Positions 1 to 31,775 of a stretch of 32,326 nucleotides of DNA are shown piece after piece (within the stretch, counting starts at the first letter, position 1; every line of letters starts with the position of its first letter). The DNA is taken from positions 1 through 32,326 of IMG/VR virus record IMGVR_UViG_3300035184_001258; one strand, given 5' to 3'. The translations under genes were made by a program, and so were the position numbers. Under the pieces are notes generated by a model. That model was not told the origin of the DNA. It did not search any database and worked only from the letters and a program-made list of their open reading frames with translations. This DNA comes from a virus.

Positions 1-3000
1 ACTGTAGATATTTTTGACGTAATGTACAAAAAGATTTATGAAATGAGGGATACTAAATTATGGATGCATGATTTATTAGACAAATTAAAAACATATGTAG
101 CAGATAAAAACTCAAACAAAATTACTGAATTTGTTCAAGCATTTAACAAGACGGAGGTAAATTACTTTGTTACGCAGGTAGACGGAGGTAAATTCTCTGT
201 AATTAATGCCACATCTACAAATAGCAGAAGAAGCCAATTGATGAATAGATGGAATAATGCATTTGTTTCTAGGTTTTTAGGAGAAAAAGGACAATTAGCT
301 AGTGAAGAAAGAACATTGCTGGCTGGCATACAAGAAGATCTTTTGTATAGTGAAAAACTATGGGCACAAGACGCGGTAGATGCGGGTGATTCTTTAGAAA
401 GGTCTGATGCTTATATTGCTGCGATTTATGAAGCAGGAGGACAGGCCACTGTAGATCTTGTTGACATCCTTCAAAGAATGGGAGCAACAGATATCAACTC
501 TGATGACATAAATAGAATGATAATCATGAATGGTGGTGAAAAGAAAGTGGAAGATACTTTAAATAACCTATACAAGTCTATCAATTATATTTTTAAAGAC
601 ATACTTAAGTCTGGACATCAATTTGCTTCAGAAGAAGGAGCGTTTAATAACATATTTAACAAGGAGAACTCTACGAGAGCATTTGCAGAGGCTGTTGGAT
701 GGAGAATGAGTGACATGGCTGATGCTTCTGTATTACTTAGTCAAGGTAAGACGGGATATACAGTTACTAATCCTACATATGTATCTAATACTATCAATGA
801 ATGGAAAAAGGATCCAAGTGTTTTACGTGCACTATCTATGGATGTTTCTAAAGAGAATTCATTATGGATAAGACACTTGTTAGCTTTAGATGAGTATCCA
901 GAAGATAGACAAAGAATAAGTAATGAGAGATTAGACAACTTAAAAGCTGGACTAGACGCATCATTTACTTCTAAAGGAAAAAATGACGCTGTAGATAACA
1001 CATCTATAACTACAAATGATAATATCAATGTCAATGCATTCCAAATGCTTAATGGGTTATTGAAAAAGACTAACAAATCAATGTTCCCAACGCTTATTGC
1101 CGCGGATAAATCAAGAAGAATTTTGTTACAAGGATTTGATCCTATAGCATTTAACATGCGTACTACTGAGGATGGGTCAATTTATGTCTCTCCCAGAGCT
1201 GTCGATATAGCTTATGGATACTTTCTCGATGAATATAACAGAATGAGAAGGGTTAATCAAGAGAACAAAGATGATAGTGTAGATAAGGTTGTTCATTATC
1301 ATGGAGAAGACGGTAATGGTATTCAATCTCAAATATTTCCTCAGTTTAGCAAGAACAATACAGACCCTGCATTTCAAGAATTGAGAGCAGCAATATATGG
1401 AAAGACATTTGAAAGTGACAAGTATAACGGATTGTCATTAGATCAACAAAAAATAGTTCACAAATTTATTGAAGAAAGTATCTCTGATAGAGTTAAAGAA
1501 CATGCAACTAAATTAGATAATATTGACGGACTAAGTAAGGAACTTAAAGATCATTATGGAGACATAAATGGGCTTGCTGGTGACTACTTTATGAACGGGC
1601 TTATAGCTTCTGTAGAATATACTAAAATGTTCTCAGGAGACCCTGCATTCTATAAAAATAATGCAGATTTAATTAAGCGTATTCCTGCAACTTATACTGA
1701 TGGATTACAATTAAGATTAGAAGATGGTGATTCACTTATCTTCAATCAAGCAACAGTTGAAGGTGTTGAAGTTGCTTCTAAATATATAGCTAAAATCTTA
1801 GAATCTGTTACAGATAAAAAAATTGCAGATGCATACAAAAGAGTTAATACTACTGATGCTCAAGCATGGATTACTCCTCGTAGATGGAGATTTCTTAAGC
1901 AGAAGTTAGGTCAGTGGGGCCCACAGCATGATAAGGTTTATGATCTTATGAAAACTGGTGGAAACATGAGTCCAGAACAAACTAAATTAGCAGCTCAGCC
2001 ATTAAAAGGTGTTTACTTTGAAATCAATCAGGGTAGACCAGTGTATTTAAAGTACTCTCAGGCTGTATTGATTCCTTCATTAGTAAAAGGAACTCCAATG
2101 GAGGGTCTTTACAATAAGATGACAAAGAATCCTGAAACAGGTGTTGAATATAGGGACGGTGAGGCTCACTTAGAGATTCATGAGGTGATAACTATAGATG
2201 GAGTTAAAGTTGGGGCTGTAGCGCCTACTAGAATAAACAAAGAAGGAACCACAGATATGTTGTCTGAAGCTGAAATGACTCTAAACCCAAAGGTACTTAA
2301 TAACAGGGGATGGAAATTACAACAGGATCTACCAATTAAGACAATGCATGAAACTAATGTTGGATCTCAAATTCAAAAGAACATCTTTGAAGGATTAAAT
2401 TTAACAGAGGATTACTTTATTAATGGAGAGCCTATTAATGGAAGTACTCTTGCTCAAAAAATACATGATACTGTATCTAAATTATCTAACATAGGTAAAG
2501 AGGATCTTAAAAGAAAGTTTGCTATTGACGAAAATGGAAAGATAAATGATAAGCAATACATCTATAATGCTCTAATAGAAGAGTTTAAAGATAGAGGTGC
2601 TAGTGAAAATGTAGTTGAAGCTCTTCAGAAACAAACACCACTTGATGCAATACCTCAGATTAGAGGTAAAGTAGAAAGTATATTTATGTCTATAATGAAT
2701 AGAAAATTGACTAAGATTACTACTGAAGGTGGTAGTTTTATTCAGGTATCTCCATTTGGATTAGAGAAAATTAGTGAAGATAGCGGTATTAAGATTGTAT
2801 CTAAAAATTACAATAGAGAAGGATTACTTCCTCCTCGTATTGATAAAAAGACTGGTGCAGTATTACCTGGTCAAGCAATGATACCTCATTCTCAGATAAT
2901 GAAGATTCTTAAAGCTAACAACATTAGTACAAAAGGAAAAACTCTTGATGAATTAGTAAGTCTTTTAGACCCTAGTTCTCTAGAATTAATTACATACAGA

Positions 3001-5565
3001 ATTCCTAACCAAGGGATGTCTTCTAATGATTATTTAGAAATTGTTGGAATATTACCTCCAGGAATGGGAGACAGTATTGTTGTTTATGATGGATTACCTG
3101 CAAAGACTGGTAGTGATTTTGATATTGATAAGTTATTTGCTATGCAGAATAACCTTGTATACAATACAGAAACAAAAACAGTAGAAAAATTAACTAAAGA
3201 GAATGAACGTTTTCTTGTTAAGAGTCCAGGGAAAGATGGATATGTAAAGAAAGATGGAACAATAGTCGAAGAAGTAGTAGCAAAATTATACACTGAATCA
3301 GAGGTAGAGAAAATGATTACTCAGAATGAATTGGTTGGTCAATACAAAGCTGTATTGAACTCTCCACTTACTTATGATGCAATGATGAGGTCTATTGATG
3401 GAGCTCAGCTTAAAGATGATATTGTTGGTACAAAAGGCAAGGACGGAAAATTAAAAGGAGGATTATTTCCTGCTCCAGTTATGAAAAACATGGAGTTATT
3501 CTCTCCACTTGTTCAACTTGAAACTAAGAGAGATTATTTATCAGGTAAAATGGGTGTAGGTCAAACTGCAAATCATTTAGTTGATCACGTAATGAATCAA
3601 TCATTAAATTTAAGATTTGATACATGGATCGGAATTGGTAACAAGAAAGAAGTAACGATTAAGAAGGGAAAGAGGAAAGGCCAAAAGAAAACTGTAACAT
3701 TTTTTGACAGTGAAACTACAGGAAAGTATTCAATAGCGGACAACCTGTCTGCATTCTTGAACGCGTATGTTGATATTGCAAAAGATCCTTACATTTCTAG
3801 AGCTAATCACAATTCAATTACAGCTGGTACCACTTTTATGTTATTAAGAGCAGGCGCTAGTATGGAGTGGGTAAATAGATTCATAGGTCAACCAATCTTA
3901 AAAGAATTAATTGCATTACAGCAAGAAAGTATGAGTATCACTGCTAGTGATATTATGCTTAAAGGTGATAAAGGAGAGACCAGTAAGGGTTCTGCTTTAG
4001 AAGCAATACTTGAAAGATATGGTTTTAATAAATTAGAATTCAATGCTGTATCTCACGCAGATGTTATCTCTAAGATGTCAAGCTCAGCACTTGAGAATAA
4101 CATCAAAGGGGAGAGAGATCAAACTTTAGATTATGATGTATTGGCAGCATGGACTTTCTTACAAGAACAAGCTAGATTTTTTGGTGATGGTGTTACGGCA
4201 GCAAAATCAGATACAGCAGGAGCTGGAGGAAGTAATGTAGAGAGATTAGTGAATGAGAACAAGGTAAAACAAGTGTATCTAGATAAGAAATTACTTGGAT
4301 ACGAAGCTAAGTTTCAAGGAACAATGCTTGGTACATATCGCGAGAACACATTGAACTGGGTTAAGGACATTATAAGAAGTTCAGATTTATTTTTATCTGG
4401 TACCCAAGGCGCAATGGATACTTATAATAATGTATCTCATGAGACTGCAAATGGTGAGCTCTTAACAGATCTTAAGTTAGCTAAGGCTATTGATGGTGCT
4501 TTCTACTCTTACACAATGTCAGGATTAACATTATTCCAAGACAATAATAAAGACTACGATGAGTTAAGCCGTGGTATTCCAAATAAGGTTATGGAAAGAC
4601 AAGCAGAAATAGTGGAAGGTACTGCTGACAGAAATTACCTGATAGAAGAATTAGAGGTTAGTACATGGAGAGATAACAAGTACATGGGTATTAACAATCA
4701 AAACAAACCAACGTATTATCAAACACAGATATACAGAGGTTGGTTAGATTTGTATAATAAACATTACACTAATGAAGACGGTACGATAGATACTGAAACT
4801 GTTCATCCTGACAAGAAACTTGCAATAGATTTAGCTAGATATGCATTTTTAAGTTCTGGATTTCAAAACAATCTGTCTCAATTCTTTTCATTCATTCCTC
4901 ATCAAATCTTAAAAGATTTTAATGTTAGTAGTGAAATTAGAGAAGCTATCAGAAATGCCGATCAAATGCCTTCTGATTCAAATTTTTCGGATCAAATACA
5001 GAGACATAGCAAAAATAACTCCAAAATAGTGAAGTCATTAAACGTTGACAACATGGACGGGGGAAGGAATGTATTCATTTATAAGCCTGCTAAAAATAAA
5101 AGTCAAGAATTTGGCTCAAGTGACGGATTTTTTCCTAAATTTGTAAATGGTAGATTTTCTGACTATATTAATGGATGGACTGTTTCATCTGACTTTCTTT
5201 ATGAAAGAAAAGGAACTGTAATTAGAAAAGATGCAGACGGACTTGACATAAGAGTTCCTGTGTATGCAAGAACTTTTGAATTAGGATCTTCTAAAGGTAA
5301 ATTCAAGAGTATAGAATACAGTAAAGGAAACATGGTAACTGAATCTAGTATTCCTTCAAACAATATAAATCCAGCTGTCGAAGCTGAAATTGAGAAAAGA
5401 ATGGATGATGTTATGATGAAAGAAGAATCATTCAAAGACAACAACGGTTCTAAGTTTGATGAACTTTCAGTAGACAATGTTGCAGAAACTAGATCTTCTG
5501 ATGCAAGTATAATAAAACAAAATTTAAGTCAGATAATCTCTGATAAAAACATTAAATGTAAATAA
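1..5565 (+). CDS. Virion-packaged single-chain RNA polymerase of crAss-like phage (5' end outside window)
   Basis: The frame is open from base 1 with no upstream stop, so the gene is probably truncated by the window; the first ATG is at 22 and gives 1847 residues. Residues 1032-1036 (from that ATG) read DFDID, inside AKTGSDFDIDKLFAMQ. This matches the DxDxD catalytic metal-binding signature of double-psi-beta-barrel polymerases of the crAss-like/YonO/QDE-1 type. A conserved-looking basic segment MNRKLTKITTEGGSFIQ lies about 130 residues before it. Family knowledge: in Cellulophaga phage phi14:2 this enzyme (gp66, about 2180 aa) is packaged, injected and transcribes early genes. Here the missing N-terminus would be about 300 residues if lengths match (inference). 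The downstream giant gene starts 5 bases after the stop, so they are co-transcribed. No Shine-Dalgarno site is expected or visible. Confidence 0.9.
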   Translation, partial: TVDIFDVMYKKIYEMRDTKLWMHDLLDKLKTYVADKNSNKITEFVQAFNKTEVNYFVTQVDGGKFSVINATSTNSRRSQLMNRWNNAFVSRFLGEKGQLASEERTLLAGIQEDLLYSEKLWAQDAVDAGDSLERSDAYIAAIYEAGGQATVDLVDILQRMGATDINSDDINRMIIMNGGEKKVEDTLNNLYKSINYIFKDILKSGHQFASEEGAFNNIFNKENSTRAFAEAVGWRMSDMADASVLLSQGKTGYTVTNPTYVSNTINEWKKDPSVLRALSMDVSKENSLWIRHLLALDEYPEDRQRISNERLDNLKAGLDASFTSKGKNDAVDNTSITTNDNINVNAFQMLNGLLKKTNKSMFPTLIAADKSRRILLQGFDPIAFNMRTTEDGSIYVSPRAVDIAYGYFLDEYNRMRRVNQENKDDSVDKVVHYHGEDGNGIQSQIFPQFSKNNTDPAFQELRAAIYGKTFESDKYNGLSLDQQKIVHKFIEESISDRVKEHATKLDNIDGLSKELKDHYGDINGLAGDYFMNGLIASVEYTKMFSGDPAFYKNNADLIKRIPATYTDGLQLRLEDGDSLIFNQATVEGVEVASKYIAKILESVTDKKIADAYKRVNTTDAQAWITPRRWRFLKQKLGQWGPQHDKVYDLMKTGGNMSPEQTKLAAQPLKGVYFEINQGRPVYLKYSQAVLIPSLVKGTPMEGLYNKMTKNPETGVEYRDGEAHLEIHEVITIDGVKVGAVAPTRINKEGTTDMLSEAEMTLNPKVLNNRGWKLQQDLPIKTMHETNVGSQIQKNIFEGLNLTEDYFINGEPINGSTLAQKIHDTVSKLSNIGKEDLKRKFAIDENGKINDKQYIYNALIEEFKDRGASENVVEALQKQTPLDAIPQIRGKVESIFMSIMNRKLTKITTEGGSFIQVSPFGLEKISEDSGIKIVSKNYNREGLLPPRIDKKTGAVLPGQAMIPHSQIMKILKANNISTKGKTLDELVSLLDPSSLELITYRIPNQGMSSNDYLEIVGILPPGMGDSIVVYDGLPAKTGSDFDIDKLFAMQNNLVYNTETKTVEKLTKENERFLVKSPGKDGYVKKDGTIVEEVVAKLYTESEVEKMITQNELVGQYKAVLNSPLTYDAMMRSIDGAQLKDDIVGTKGKDGKLKGGLFPAPVMKNMELFSPLVQLETKRDYLSGKMGVGQTANHLVDHVMNQSLNLRFDTWIGIGNKKEVTIKKGKRKGQKKTVTFFDSETTGKYSIADNLSAFLNAYVDIAKDPYISRANHNSITAGTTFMLLRAGASMEWVNRFIGQPILKELIALQQESMSITASDIMLKGDKGETSKGSALEAILERYGFNKLEFNAVSHADVISKMSSSALENNIKGERDQTLDYDVLAAWTFLQEQARFFGDGVTAAKSDTAGAGGSNVERLVNENKVKQVYLDKKLLGYEAKFQGTMLGTYRENTLNWVKDIIRSSDLFLSGTQGAMDTYNNVSHETANGELLTDLKLAKAIDGAFYSYTMSGLTLFQDNNKDYDELSRGIPNKVMERQAEIVEGTADRNYLIEELEVSTWRDNKYMGINNQNKPTYYQTQIYRGWLDLYNKHYTNEDGTIDTETVHPDKKLAIDLARYAFLSSGFQNNLSQFFSFIPHQILKDFNVSSEIREAIRNADQMPSDSNFSDQIQRHSKNNSKIVKSLNVDNMDGGRNVFIYKPAKNKSQEFGSSDGFFPKFVNGRFSDYINGWTVSSDFLYERKGTVIRKDADGLDIRVPVYARTFELGSSKGKFKSIEYSKGNMVTESSIPSNNINPAVEAEIEKRMDDVMMKEESFKDNNGSKFDELSVDNVAETRSSDASIIKQNLSQIISDKNIKCK

Positions 5566-28790: not shown

Positions 28791-29228
28791 TTATTGTTTA
28801 TATTCTCTTCTTGTTGCACTTTTCTTGTACAACTCTTGATCCATCATCATATTTAATGCTTCTTCTGATGATAGGTTTTTTGCAGTCTCGTCATCTATAT
28901 CTAAATAGTGCTGTAAGAATTCTGCTTCATTTGCAAATACGCTTTCTGTATCCTTCTCCAACGATAACAATGGTTCAGGTAAATTGTAAGGTACTTCACA
29001 ATTAGATCTAAATATTGCAGCACCTCTACATTGAGATACTGTTTCAGGGTTAGATCCGTGTCCTTGATAATTCTTGTCTTTGTGGCATGGTAACCAAAAT
29101 GGCCCTCTTGTTTGTCCTATGTATACAAATGGATGTGATCCTCCTGGATTTGGTTTCTCATTTGTATTCACTCTTTTAAATGGACATCCACCACAAGCTT
29201 TAGTGCTTTTTGTTTGCTTGAAGTTCAT
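28791..29228 (-). CDS. Cys-rich DUF6283-like protein, 145 aa
   Basis: MNFKQTKSTKACGGCPFKRV, then GPFWLPCHKDKNYQGHGSN and SQCRGAAIFRSNC. The CGGCPF ... PCHKD ... CRGA pattern recalls the small DUF6283 family found in phages (recognition from memory). The ligand set C12, C15, C48, H49, C67 could bind zinc or a metal. The C-terminal half is acidic and helical. The function of the family is not known. The 5' end overlaps a 50-aa ORF by 29 bases. Confidence 0.7.
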   Translation of the reverse strand: MNFKQTKSTKACGGCPFKRVNTNEKPNPGGSHPFVYIGQTRGPFWLPCHKDKNYQGHGSNPETVSQCRGAAIFRSNCEVPYNLPEPLLSLEKDTESVFANEAEFLQHYLDIDDETAKNLSSEEALNMMMDQELYKKSATRREYKQ

Positions 29229-29352
29229 TAGTTAGTTGTTTAAAAATGTATTTATCAAAATTACTTGGATTCACTAATGAAACTATTGCTATCTCGTGCT
29301 TTGTAAATGCACATGCTACTGGTTTCACTATTGTGTTAATGCTTGGTATCAT
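29200..29352 (-). CDS. Small hypothetical protein, 50 aa
   Basis: ATG 29352 behind an A-rich leader (TTTAAAATCAAATC) typical of this genome. The peptide reads MIPSINTIVKPVACAFTKHE, then IAIVSLVNPSNFDKYIFKQL and a basic tail. It overlaps the next gene start by 29 bases. No family is recognised, but the sequence looks protein-like and it directly follows the 29.4-29.8 kb folded region. Confidence 0.5.
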   Translation of the reverse strand: MIPSINTIVKPVACAFTKHEIAIVSLVNPSNFDKYIFKQLTNELQANKKH

Positions 29353-29396
29353 GATTTGATTTTAAATGATTAATTATTGTTTATGTTTTTATTAGC

Positions 29397-29765
29397 ACCC
29401 TCTTTCTTATTAGTAATGAGTAACTTGTTTCAGATTACGTTCTTAATAAGAGTAGGGTCACATAGTTAAAGTTCGCATCCACCCTATAGGTTACTTAACG
29501 TTTCAACTTAACTACTTGCTGAGAACTCATTTGTGTTGGTTGGCCCATTTTATCAACAACTTTGATAGAATTTCCTTTCTCAAGGGAACAACACATCTAG
29601 CATCACTGCTATCCGACTCTCTTGGCGTGGTTCACAACCAACTCTCCAAGCGTGGATTATCCTGTCAATTCAGGATTAGTATTTTTATGTAATTGTAGCT
29701 CTAACCTACTATATCAATTTCCATCAACGCTTACTTAAAAGCTCAGGTTTTATACTTACAAAGGT
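29397..29765 (-). ncRNA. Candidate structured non-coding RNA, about 370 nt
   Basis: No convincing coding frame here. On the - strand several stems are visible. ATCCTG/CAGGAT is at 29659-29676. CTTGG...CCAAG at 29621-29650 has an inner TGGTT/ACCA. TAGCA-GTGA-TGCTA at 29598-29611 has a GNRA (GUGA) tetraloop. TATCAA/TTGATA is at 29551-29567. GTTGGTTG/CAACCAAC is long-range, between 29635-29642 and 29535-29542. TAGGGT/ACCCTA joins 29481-29486 and 29453-29458. TCTTATTA/TAATAAGA joins 29444-29451 and 29405-29412. The GNRA loop exists only on the - strand, which supports that orientation. The class is unknown; boundaries are approximate. Confidence 0.55.
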
Positions 29766-29773
29766 TTCAATGT

Positions 29774-30058
29774 TTAACCTATAATTTTAAGTTTATTTAA
29801 TTTTTTAAGCTTAAATTCAACATTTTTATCAATAACTTTTGTTCTTTTTAAGCTAGCTTGAATCTTTTCTCTTTGTATTTGTTGGTGATTTGCCAACATG
29901 GCTCCCTCAGCAATAGCTTTGATTGCTTTACCAGATACTCTTGATATTGCCGTAGCCTGGTTAATGCTTAGTCTTCCTTCTCTTAGGTCAATTACATCTT
30001 GACATAATCCTGAAGAAATTGTATTCATGATTTTCAGTTGATTGTTAATTGGTATCAT
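29774..30058 (-). CDS. Hypothetical HTH-like protein, 94 aa
   Basis: MIPINNQLKIMNTISSGLCQ; Met11 is an alternative start. DLREGRLSINQATAISRVSG followed by KAIKAIAEGAMLA reads like a helix-turn-helix of ParB/KorB type (S-I-N-Q-A-x-A-I). The C-terminus is very basic (VEFKLKKLNKLKIIG). It may bind DNA or RNA and lies between two folded non-coding regions. Its start overlaps the end of the frameshift-extended upstream gene by 14 bases. Confidence 0.65.
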   Translation of the reverse strand: MIPINNQLKIMNTISSGLCQDVIDLREGRLSINQATAISRVSGKAIKAIAEGAMLANHQQIQREKIQASLKRTKVIDKNVEFKLKKLNKLKIIG

Positions 30059-30562
30059 TTTGCTTATGGTTTTTAAGTTCTCTGTGTAATTTTAATTGAT
30101 TTCTTTTTAACTCTATAAGGTTATTTGGAAGTTTACCTACTTTGACTCTAAGAACACTTCCGCATATATAATTGTCTGATAGAGTTTCTCTTGATATTTT
30201 GTTGCATTTTTTTTTAATTCAATATATTTATAACTGTTTTTTAAGTTGTAATTATATTGATTTTCTTTAATGCAGTTTTTGCATTTATGATCGTAAAGAT
30301 TAGAGCTTTTTGTTTTTTTATCACATTTATTACAAAAATAAAATCCAAAGTGCTTTTTTAATAAAGAACTTACAGTGAAATTAAAGTTCCCTTTCTTTGA
30401 GAAGAGTCTTAAACTTACGTTTTTACCGCTTTTTTTAATAGGCTTATTGCAATTTGTATATGTAATATTCCCTTTCCACGTTCTTTTATAATGAATAATT
30501 ACTTCTCCATCTTCTCTAATAGAGTACTGTTTATTAGTTCCTTCAATGTATTTAGTTTTCAT
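30045..30562 (-). pseudogene. Frameshifted NUMOD4-like/zinc-ribbon protein
   Basis: From ATG 30562 (MKTKYIEGTNKQYSIREDGE) the frame runs to a stop at 30137 (141 aa; an upstream Met at 30628 is less likely). The N-terminus resembles NUMOD4/HNH-associated modules (QYSIREDGEVI), then a zinc ribbon FCNKCDKK ... HKCKNCIKE. After a run of nine A (30207-30215) the -1 frame continues with a natural-looking C-terminus, ISRETLSDNYICGSVLRVKV then LPNNLIELKRNQLKLHRELK, to a stop at 30045. One extra A or a -1 slip would join them into about 172 residues. It could be a real mutation, programmed frameshifting, or a homopolymer error. Confidence 0.7.
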
Positions 30563-30706
30563 TTGATTTAGTTTAAAATCAATATTATTGCAGCCACTTA
30601 TAAAATGTAAACTTAGGTTGTATGTCATTGTAATTGTATAGAATTTCTCTATAACTAACTTTTAACTTAATACAGCATAACGAGCCTTATTTACATTATA
30701 TTTTAA

Positions 30707-30817
30707 AAACTCTCACAAGGTTGCACCTTGACTTCTTTCGGTAAAAATTGTTTATAAAATACCTCTATTTTATCATCACTACCTATTGGTAGTTTACCTG
30801 CAATTGGATGAGAGTTT
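30707..30817 (-). other. Multibranched 3' domain of the large RNA candidate
   Basis: Perfect outer stem AAACTCTCA (30809-30817) / TGAGAGTTT (30707-30715). Inside: GGTAAA/TTTACC (30793-30798 with 30740-30745) enclosing hairpins ACTACC-AATA-GGTAGT (30778-30793) and ATAAAATA-GAGG-TATTTTAT (30754-30773). Outside that helix lies CAAGGT-GCA-ACCTTG (30716-30730), which stacks directly on the outer stem. On the - strand the outer stem ends in a U-rich tail (TTTTTAAAA), so this may also terminate the RNA. Confidence 0.7.
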
Positions 30818-31380
30818 AATTTTTACTGTTATTTTAATAATAAGGCTATAATTTTCCTTTCTGTTTAATAATAAATGTAGGGAGGTATTCGTGGAATTTG
30901 ACCTAAGTACAAGACTATCTTCAGCCTAGCGTATTAACTCCCCAGCTATTCATACATAATTGAGGGCTCTATACCTCGGTTATTACTATGCACCATCCTC
31001 GCTTACATTTATGTTTTAAAATATCACTGCAGCCCTCCGCACTTGGGAACTCAACCACCTGTCTTGCCTAATAGAGTACTCGAACAACTCTCTACAATGA
31101 TAGTTTGTGGATTCGAACCACTCTCTTCTTCAATTTTATAACCCCGCAATTCACAAGGCCCAGCGCTCTATATGTGAACTTTAGCCTGATCATCCGTGTT
31201 TTCGCTCGTCCTAATACCCAATTTTAATTAGAAGGAAACTACTCGTGGACTATTGCGTGTACGCCTTACGGAGGTTAGTGGTTGACCTTATAGATAGAAA
31301 CACTGTTCTACCAAATTAAGATTTGTTTTTGATTGTTAATATTAATTTTTAGTTACTAATGCACTTGATGGCTTAAATAA
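30707..31380 (-). ncRNA. Candidate large ornate non-coding RNA, about 670 nt
   Basis: A gene-free stretch that is clearly GC-richer than the genes (30 of 60 bases G/C in 31021-31080). - strand stems: AGTTCACA/TGTGAATT (31173-31180 with 31148-31155); GTGG-TTCGAAT-CCAC at 31107-31121, a TΨC-like arm; TAGAG/CTCTA (31090-31094 with 31072-31076); a 9-bp ATAAATGTA/TACATTTAT stem closing 30871-31012 and continuing with GCGAGG/CCTCCC (one mismatch); and the nested 30707-30817 domain. I could not fold a canonical tRNA. It may be GOLLD/ROOL-like or intron-like. Ends are estimates. Confidence 0.55.
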
Positions 31381-31397
31381 TAATTAACTTAATATGC

Positions 31398-31574
31398 TTA
31401 TACTATCTCTACCTTATTGCCAAAGTTATTCTTACTCCACTCGTCTGCATCAAACCCTAACTCTACATATTTATCGTACACCTTTCTATTTATCTTTAGA
31501 CCTACATAAAACTTATCAGTGTTTATCTTTCCAAAGTCTACGTGTGAAAATCCTACTATTGTTATATACTGCAT
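31398..31574 (-). CDS. Small hypothetical protein, 58 aa
   Basis: ATG 31574: MQYITIVGFSHVDFGKINTD, then KFYVGLKINRKVYDKYVELG and DADEWSKNNFGNKVEIV. It has the balance of a small folded alpha/beta protein, likely real. The leader AAAATATAAAATATAAATC is typical for this genome. It ends just before the large non-coding region. No family is recognised. Confidence 0.65.
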   Translation of the reverse strand: MQYITIVGFSHVDFGKINTDKFYVGLKINRKVYDKYVELGFDADEWSKNNFGNKVEIV

Positions 31575-31604
31575 GATTTATATTTTATATTTTATATTTT
31601 AATC

Positions 31605-31775
31605 CTAATAATATTCTACAACTCTAAACAAACTACACAAAGAGTATTTATGAGTAATTCTTTTCCCGTCTTTAATAAACATTACACAATACATACTTCC
31701 TTTTGTACAGGCATTCTCTACTGTATCATATACAATAGGGCAACTTGTTTCATTTCTCTGTATTTCTATTTTCAT
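31605..31775 (-). CDS. Small Cys-containing protein, 56 aa
   Basis: ATG 31775: MKIEIQRNETSCPIVYDTVE, then NACTKGSMYCVMFIKDGKRI and THKYSLCSLFRVVEYY. Four cysteines and an alternating beta pattern suggest a small beta-barrel or metal-binding domain. It sits 7 bases after the basic 37-aa peptide. No family is recognised. Confidence 0.6.
   Translation of the reverse strand: MKIEIQRNETSCPIVYDTVENACTKGSMYCVMFIKDGKRITHKYSLCSLFRVVEYY

Follow-up and report, generated by a model that had tools for sequence, protein, structure and literature searches.

Comparison with homologues in other phages indicates that positions 30700–31385 of the window (the whole stretch of viral DNA analysed, 32,326 bases) hold a tandem of separate RNA domains. 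The preliminary description had proposed one ornate RNA of about 670 nt, a claim left unsupported, since the pieces recur singly, in other orders and places, each with its own closing helix. In the window, two giant ORFs on the plus strand precede a long block of replication genes on the minus strand (DnaB-like helicase, a second helicase, DNA ligase and exonuclease); this layout matches that of crAss-like phages, and the window is from a crAss-like phage of marine Bacteroidota. Cellulophaga phage phi14:2 (Crassvirales) has the same layout, with giant genes that encode RNA polymerase subunits. Since the genes near the finding are located on the minus strand, the RNA is to be read on that strand. 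No tRNA or tmRNA was found in the window by ARAGORN or by Rfam at gathering cut-offs. Relatives of the window were gathered via the neighbouring helicase.

The predicted domain array in the window

The predicted features are listed below in their order on the minus strand.

31139–31278, minus strand: RNA module M1, with a closing helix containing one bulged base, two hairpins, and conserved UCCACGAGUA, ACGGAUGAU and ACAUAUAGAGC
31023–31124, minus strand: RNA module M2, with conserved AGAGUGGUUCGAAUCCACAAA (TPsiC-like arm, 31104–31124), closing helix P1 and hairpin P2
30873–31010, minus strand: RNA module M3, a core with UUCCACGAAYACCUCC on a closing helix
30708–30820, minus strand: RNA module C, with a closing helix, invariant UCCAAUUGCAGG and UCAAGGUGCAACCUUGU (possible pseudoknot UUGCA:UGCAA) and a variable arm
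30603–30694, minus strand: M5, an arm of the P2 type known from block-B RNA, which in the window stands outside block B and adjoins the endonuclease-like gene
30137–30628, minus strand: zinc-ribbon endonuclease-like ORF, start likely near 30562; the downstream frame continues as LRVKVGKLPNNLIELKRNQLKLHRELKNH
29774–30058, minus strand: 94-aa ORF between the endonuclease-like ORF and block B
29392–29780, minus strand: complete copy of the block-B RNA, with fixed elements AGGUUAAACAUUGAA ... AAGAAAGAGGGUGCUAA
29392–29459, minus strand: M4, the 3' domain of block B, with invariant GACCCUACUCUU and AAGAAAGAGGGYGCUAA around a variable hairpin

M1, M2 and M3 are consecutive, with linkers of only about 15 nt. 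The GC content of 30872–31290 is 0.422, compared to 0.332 for the whole window, and is in the top 0.1% among stretches of equal length; stop-free runs within 30700–31385 reach at most 67 codons in any frame. GC content, open frames and comparative evidence agree with the earlier account of a GC-rich, gene-free and structured region. The multibranched domain that this account placed at 30707–30817 is recognized here as module C and its domain at 30871–31012 as M3, and its TTCGAAT TΨC-like arm is located at 31111–31117, within GUGG-UUCGAAU-CCAC of M2. The proposal of two blocks flanking a disrupted gene holds for the second RNA block (29392–29780) and for the disrupted endonuclease-like gene, whereas the single RNA of about 670 nt that went with it is unsupported.

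The minimum free energy of 30870–31345 is no better than that of shuffled sequence (z 0.0), and that of 30700–30860 is moderately better (z −2.5). As the main block has no energy signal, energy was dropped as evidence; thermodynamic folding alone would miss the finding. The case for the predicted structure rests on comparison, namely compensatory change in M1, M2, M3 and C together with out-of-sample covariance-model matches. Used as a direct DNA query against phage records, the whole region gave no match, whereas single modules did match.

The endonuclease-like ORF, which separates the two RNA blocks of the window, is probably disrupted by a frameshift near its 3' end. It shares 35% identity with an ORF of Flavobacterium psychrophilum phages, and its closest cultured relative, in FpV21, likewise adjoins module C; no Pfam family, and no nuclease family match in Pfam or PHROGs, was obtained for it. 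FpV21 also contains a short ORF at the same relative place as the 94-aa ORF of the window, a likeness by position alone. M5 has its match in the block-B P2 arm of phi14:2, in a comparison of two sequences only.

Comparison of modules M1, M2, M3 and C between phages

The helices of M1, M2 and M3 change sequence completely between phages with their pairing kept: in four helix sets, own partners pair at 100%, compared to 35–59% for partners swapped between phages. The counts, obtained with 4–5 sequences per module, are 33/33 pairs vs 0.59 swapped for P3 of M1, 37/37 vs 0.42 for P1 and 19/19 vs 0.35 for P2 of M2, and 39/39 vs 0.48 for the closing helix P1 of M3. The strands used in these helix tests were selected by eye, a choice favouring pairing; despite this choice, the swapped-partner control indicates that the pairing belongs to each sequence. 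P2 of M3 in the window was 0/5 paired with the strands as entered.

Homologues of M1 are present on contigs L022, L024 and L039, with DNA identities of 72–87% for L022 and L024. A weak covariance-model match in L017 (E 0.034) has a fitting closing helix, which reads AAGCC[C]UGCUG/CAGCAGGCUU when the bulged base is allowed. M2 has homologues in L003, L109 and L110, and the copy in L109 is located between two tRNA-like genes (arrangement at L109:3409–3745). M3 was found in L022, L039 and L076, and a new covariance-model match was obtained in L055 (E 9e-7), which was absent from model building; its closing helix consists of unrelated sequences across phages (by context, AAAUGUA/UACAUUU, AACAGUCAGU/ACUGACUGUU, GUAGUUA/UAACUAC and AUUAAUAC/GUAUUAAU). 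L022 contains M3 at 2349 and M1 at 4477, approximately 2 kb apart, with genes between them and in the order opposite to that of the window.

The models R1 and R3 are RNAalifold consensus structures of four sequences, which reproduced the manually recognized helices only in part and served for searching alone. Matches of model R1 in phi4:1 (E 0.06–0.2) were rejected. The first search pattern for M2 yielded a single chance match, within a coding gene of L005. In the first of the tRNA-like genes flanking M2 in L109, the anticodon region is enlarged, and the Rfam tRNA match extends over 114 nt.

Module C is found on nine contigs, the window and eight others. All 162 cells of its helices are paired, 6/8 closing pairs are changed on both sides, and the covariation score is 0.306 compared to 0.132 for shuffles. 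The stem and candidate pseudoknot around GGUGCAACC are invariant, and so give no covariation signal either way. Covariance-model searches located C in the cultured Flavobacterium psychrophilum phage FpV21 (E 2.8e-14), which was outside the training set, and three copies in L107, the extra copies with E 9e-8 and 1.5e-6. The exact C pattern had no match among 84,980 prokaryote (bacterial and archaeal) species. The order in L105 is C, block B and permuted tmRNA. Permuted tmRNA genes (RF04321) downstream of C were detected at L104:6857–7213 (64 bits) and L105:3463–3817 (60 bits).

Block B and the exchange of domains

Block B is recognized from its shared sequence blocks, in 46 non-redundant contexts, as a conserved predicted RNA of ~250–450 nt on 44 distinct contigs. 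Its 3' pattern alone occurs in 56 IMG/VR stretches, on contigs of up to 373 kb; the exact M4 pattern is absent from the 84,980 bacterial and archaeal species. The cultured phage phi14:2 contains block B at about 2905–3370, in a gap where RefSeq removed spurious ORFs, and phi4:1 (Lightbulbvirus, unrelated to phi14:2) contains the 3' domain only. Across 40 distinct M4 hairpins, 199/320 cells are paired, compared to 164 (maximum 193) with shuffled partners, and G.U (28) is more frequent than A.C (13), which points to an RNA of this strand.

A tRNA or tmRNA is located within 5 kb of block B in 20 of the 44 distinct loci, with 88 tRNA/tmRNA genes near block B on the same strand and 0 on the opposite strand; in several phages, a tmRNA neighbours block B or C. 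L066 contains block B and, elsewhere on the contig, a true GOLLD (5021–5439, minus strand, 292 bits), together with a tmRNA and more than 20 tRNAs. Since GOLLD was found there by the same Rfam search, at another place, this search is able to detect GOLLD, and block B is a separate class.

In L039 and L076, M3 forms the variable insert of block B between AAGUAGUUA and UAACUACGU, and in L055 another block-B helix carries an M3 relative. M5, which in phi14:2 serves as the block-B P2 arm, is outside block B in the window. A further domain, M6, stands alone in L022 and phi4:1, and an M6-like sequence, seen by eye only, is present in the block-B P2 of L069. Each of M3, M5 and M6 is thus found on its own as well as within block-B helix tips, so that peripheral domains are exchanged between helix tips and between phages. 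Homing endonuclease genes are found within block-B loci (GIY-YIG in L076, NUMOD4/HNH in L081 and HNH in L098), and may help the exchange of domains.

RNA domain swapping has seldom been documented, and the same domain occurring alone and nested in a larger RNA is direct evidence of it. It is conceivable, with somewhat less than an even chance, that Bacteroidota phages share a pool of RNA domains that are recombined at helix tips into varied large noncoding RNAs, across unrelated phage families, and that serve the translation island; if true, RNA evolution would here be modular, in a way comparable to the shuffling of domains in proteins. Several new RNA families are involved, with block B and GOLLD coexisting in one phage, and these RNAs are common to crAss-like phages, Lightbulbvirus and Fipvunavirus. 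As cultured phages that infect Cellulophaga baltica and Flavobacterium psychrophilum contain some of them, expression, processing and knock-out are testable. Structured phage RNAs with no known function, such as GOLLD and ROOL, are a known kind, and domain swapping is the unusual part. A large-scale catalogue of phage structured RNAs reportedly exists; a literature search of incomplete coverage found no paper on the RNAs described here, some of which an earlier large-scale survey may have predicted.

Known RNA families and candidate explanations

The layout of block B resembles that of GOLLD (RF02032), of which a homo-oligomeric nanocage is a feature. The tRNA-island setting typical of GOLLD applies to block B in the 20 loci above and to M2 in L109; the window itself has no tRNA. 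GOLLD RNAs are large and structured, are encoded by phages near tRNA islands, and combine a conserved 3' region with a variable 5' region; their function is unknown (PMC12286853). In contrast, no module, nor block B, has an Rfam match, and the modules are short, separable and fit different helices. ROOL is also phage-encoded, often near tRNA islands, and has no known protein partner (PMC12286853). The modules differ from ROOL in spreading one by one rather than as one compact RNA, and the Rfam covariance model of ROOL had no match in the window, in 29200–31700 at E≤5 or in the relatives searched.

Rfam 15 contained no family match for the window at gathering cut-offs or for 29200–31700 at E≤5, and ARAGORN, run on the window, gave no match in the main block. 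The search with the GOLLD, ROOL, HEARO and intron models, as had been recommended, thus produced no match to explain the region; its assignment to neither GOLLD nor ROOL was borne out, and, with homologues in other phages, the region appears to encode structured noncoding phage RNA that is undescribed, as first supposed. HEARO and the IscB omega RNA were rejected for want of an Rfam match and of a nuclease family match (Pfam, PHROGs) in the neighbouring ORF. For tRNA (RF00005), ARAGORN and Rfam found no complete cloverleaf in the window, only the TPsiC-like arm in M2; this arm is also a likeness to tmRNA (RF00023, RF04321), for which the window has no match and no tag reading frame.

The explanation that we favour, with roughly even confidence, is that the region encodes an array of noncoding RNA domains that are exchangeable and act in trans, similar to GOLLD and ROOL and most probably together with the translation machinery. 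The minus strand would encode at least four domains that fold independently (M1, M2, M3 and C) and the stray arm M5, followed downstream by a broken homing-endonuclease-like gene and an intact block B. The modules would be transcribed with early genes or with a tRNA/tmRNA island, would fold as exchangeable domains, and would act as phage noncoding RNAs, while recombination, aided by homing endonucleases, would spread and reshuffle them. Sequence comparison establishes homology across phages, pairing through sequence change, solo and nested occurrence, and co-direction with genes and tRNAs. As the window contains no tRNA or tmRNA, the suggested link to translation stems from other phages, mostly from block B.

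Because M1, M2 and M3 follow each other so closely, a single ornate RNA of about 480–790 nt, made as one transcript and acting as one molecule, retains some probability for the window phage. Relatives contain long ORF-free multi-domain arrays, of 1.1 kb in L034 and of about 2.5 kb in L107, which are consistent with such an RNA; however, each tested module is found elsewhere without the others and with its own closing helix, and we consider this explanation unlikely. The modules might also be selfish mobile RNA-coding cassettes, spread by homing endonucleases with no benefit to the phage. The endonuclease genes in or beside block B in L076, L081 and L098, the block-B 5' end that flanks the gene on both sides in L076, and the endonuclease-like ORF between the two RNA blocks of the window argue for such cassettes, but most block-B copies have no endonuclease nearby and compensatory RNA pairing would be needless for selfish DNA, so that we regard such cassettes as improbable. 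We assign little probability to cis-regulatory leaders or riboswitches of downstream genes: block-B copies often end 10–100 nt ahead of a start codon, and C is about 50 nt ahead of one in L083 and L106, but the downstream gene differs per copy and many copies are followed by RNA, tRNA or tmRNA.

Endonuclease genes of the GIY-YIG or HNH type in or beside structured RNA are a likeness to group I introns with homing endonucleases. That the modules are remains of self-splicing introns, group I or II, is nevertheless very improbable, as Rfam gave no intron match, including the catalytic cores, at E≤5 (29200–31700), and the flanks of block B are, by inspection, intergenic and variable between copies, with no joinable exons seen. 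Degeneration from tRNAs or tmRNA would explain the conserved TPsiC-like arm of M2 and the location of M2 among tRNA-like genes in L109, and yet D arm, anticodon arm and CCA are all absent, the window gave no match to tRNA or tmRNA, and the sequence 3' of the arm is a separate conserved domain; we consider this origin highly doubtful. An element that acts at the DNA level, for example an origin or a packaging site, would suit the intergenic, palindrome-rich location, but has a very slight probability given that several different modules occur per genome, always co-directional with tRNAs, and that M4 tolerates G.U more than A.C.

Several oddities were observed in relatives. In phi4:1 (L042), a tRNA-Ile is located inside the anticodon loop of a second tRNA (143200–143346), with M6 just upstream; the outer tRNA was recognized by ARAGORN once the inner one was removed in silico. 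L107:482–3037 is a stretch of ~2.5 kb almost without open frame, which contains the three copies of C and apparently many other structured domains. A shared array of other closed RNA domains, 70–95% identical, is found at L034:375–1510, L025:1–965 and L017:1–620; Rfam gave no match for it in L025, L034 and L016 (a relative of L017). Further ORF-free blocks that appear to be structured are present at L022:1–1264, 1738–2345 and 4860–5070, and L022:4890–5118 is 80% identical to L021:2059–2286.
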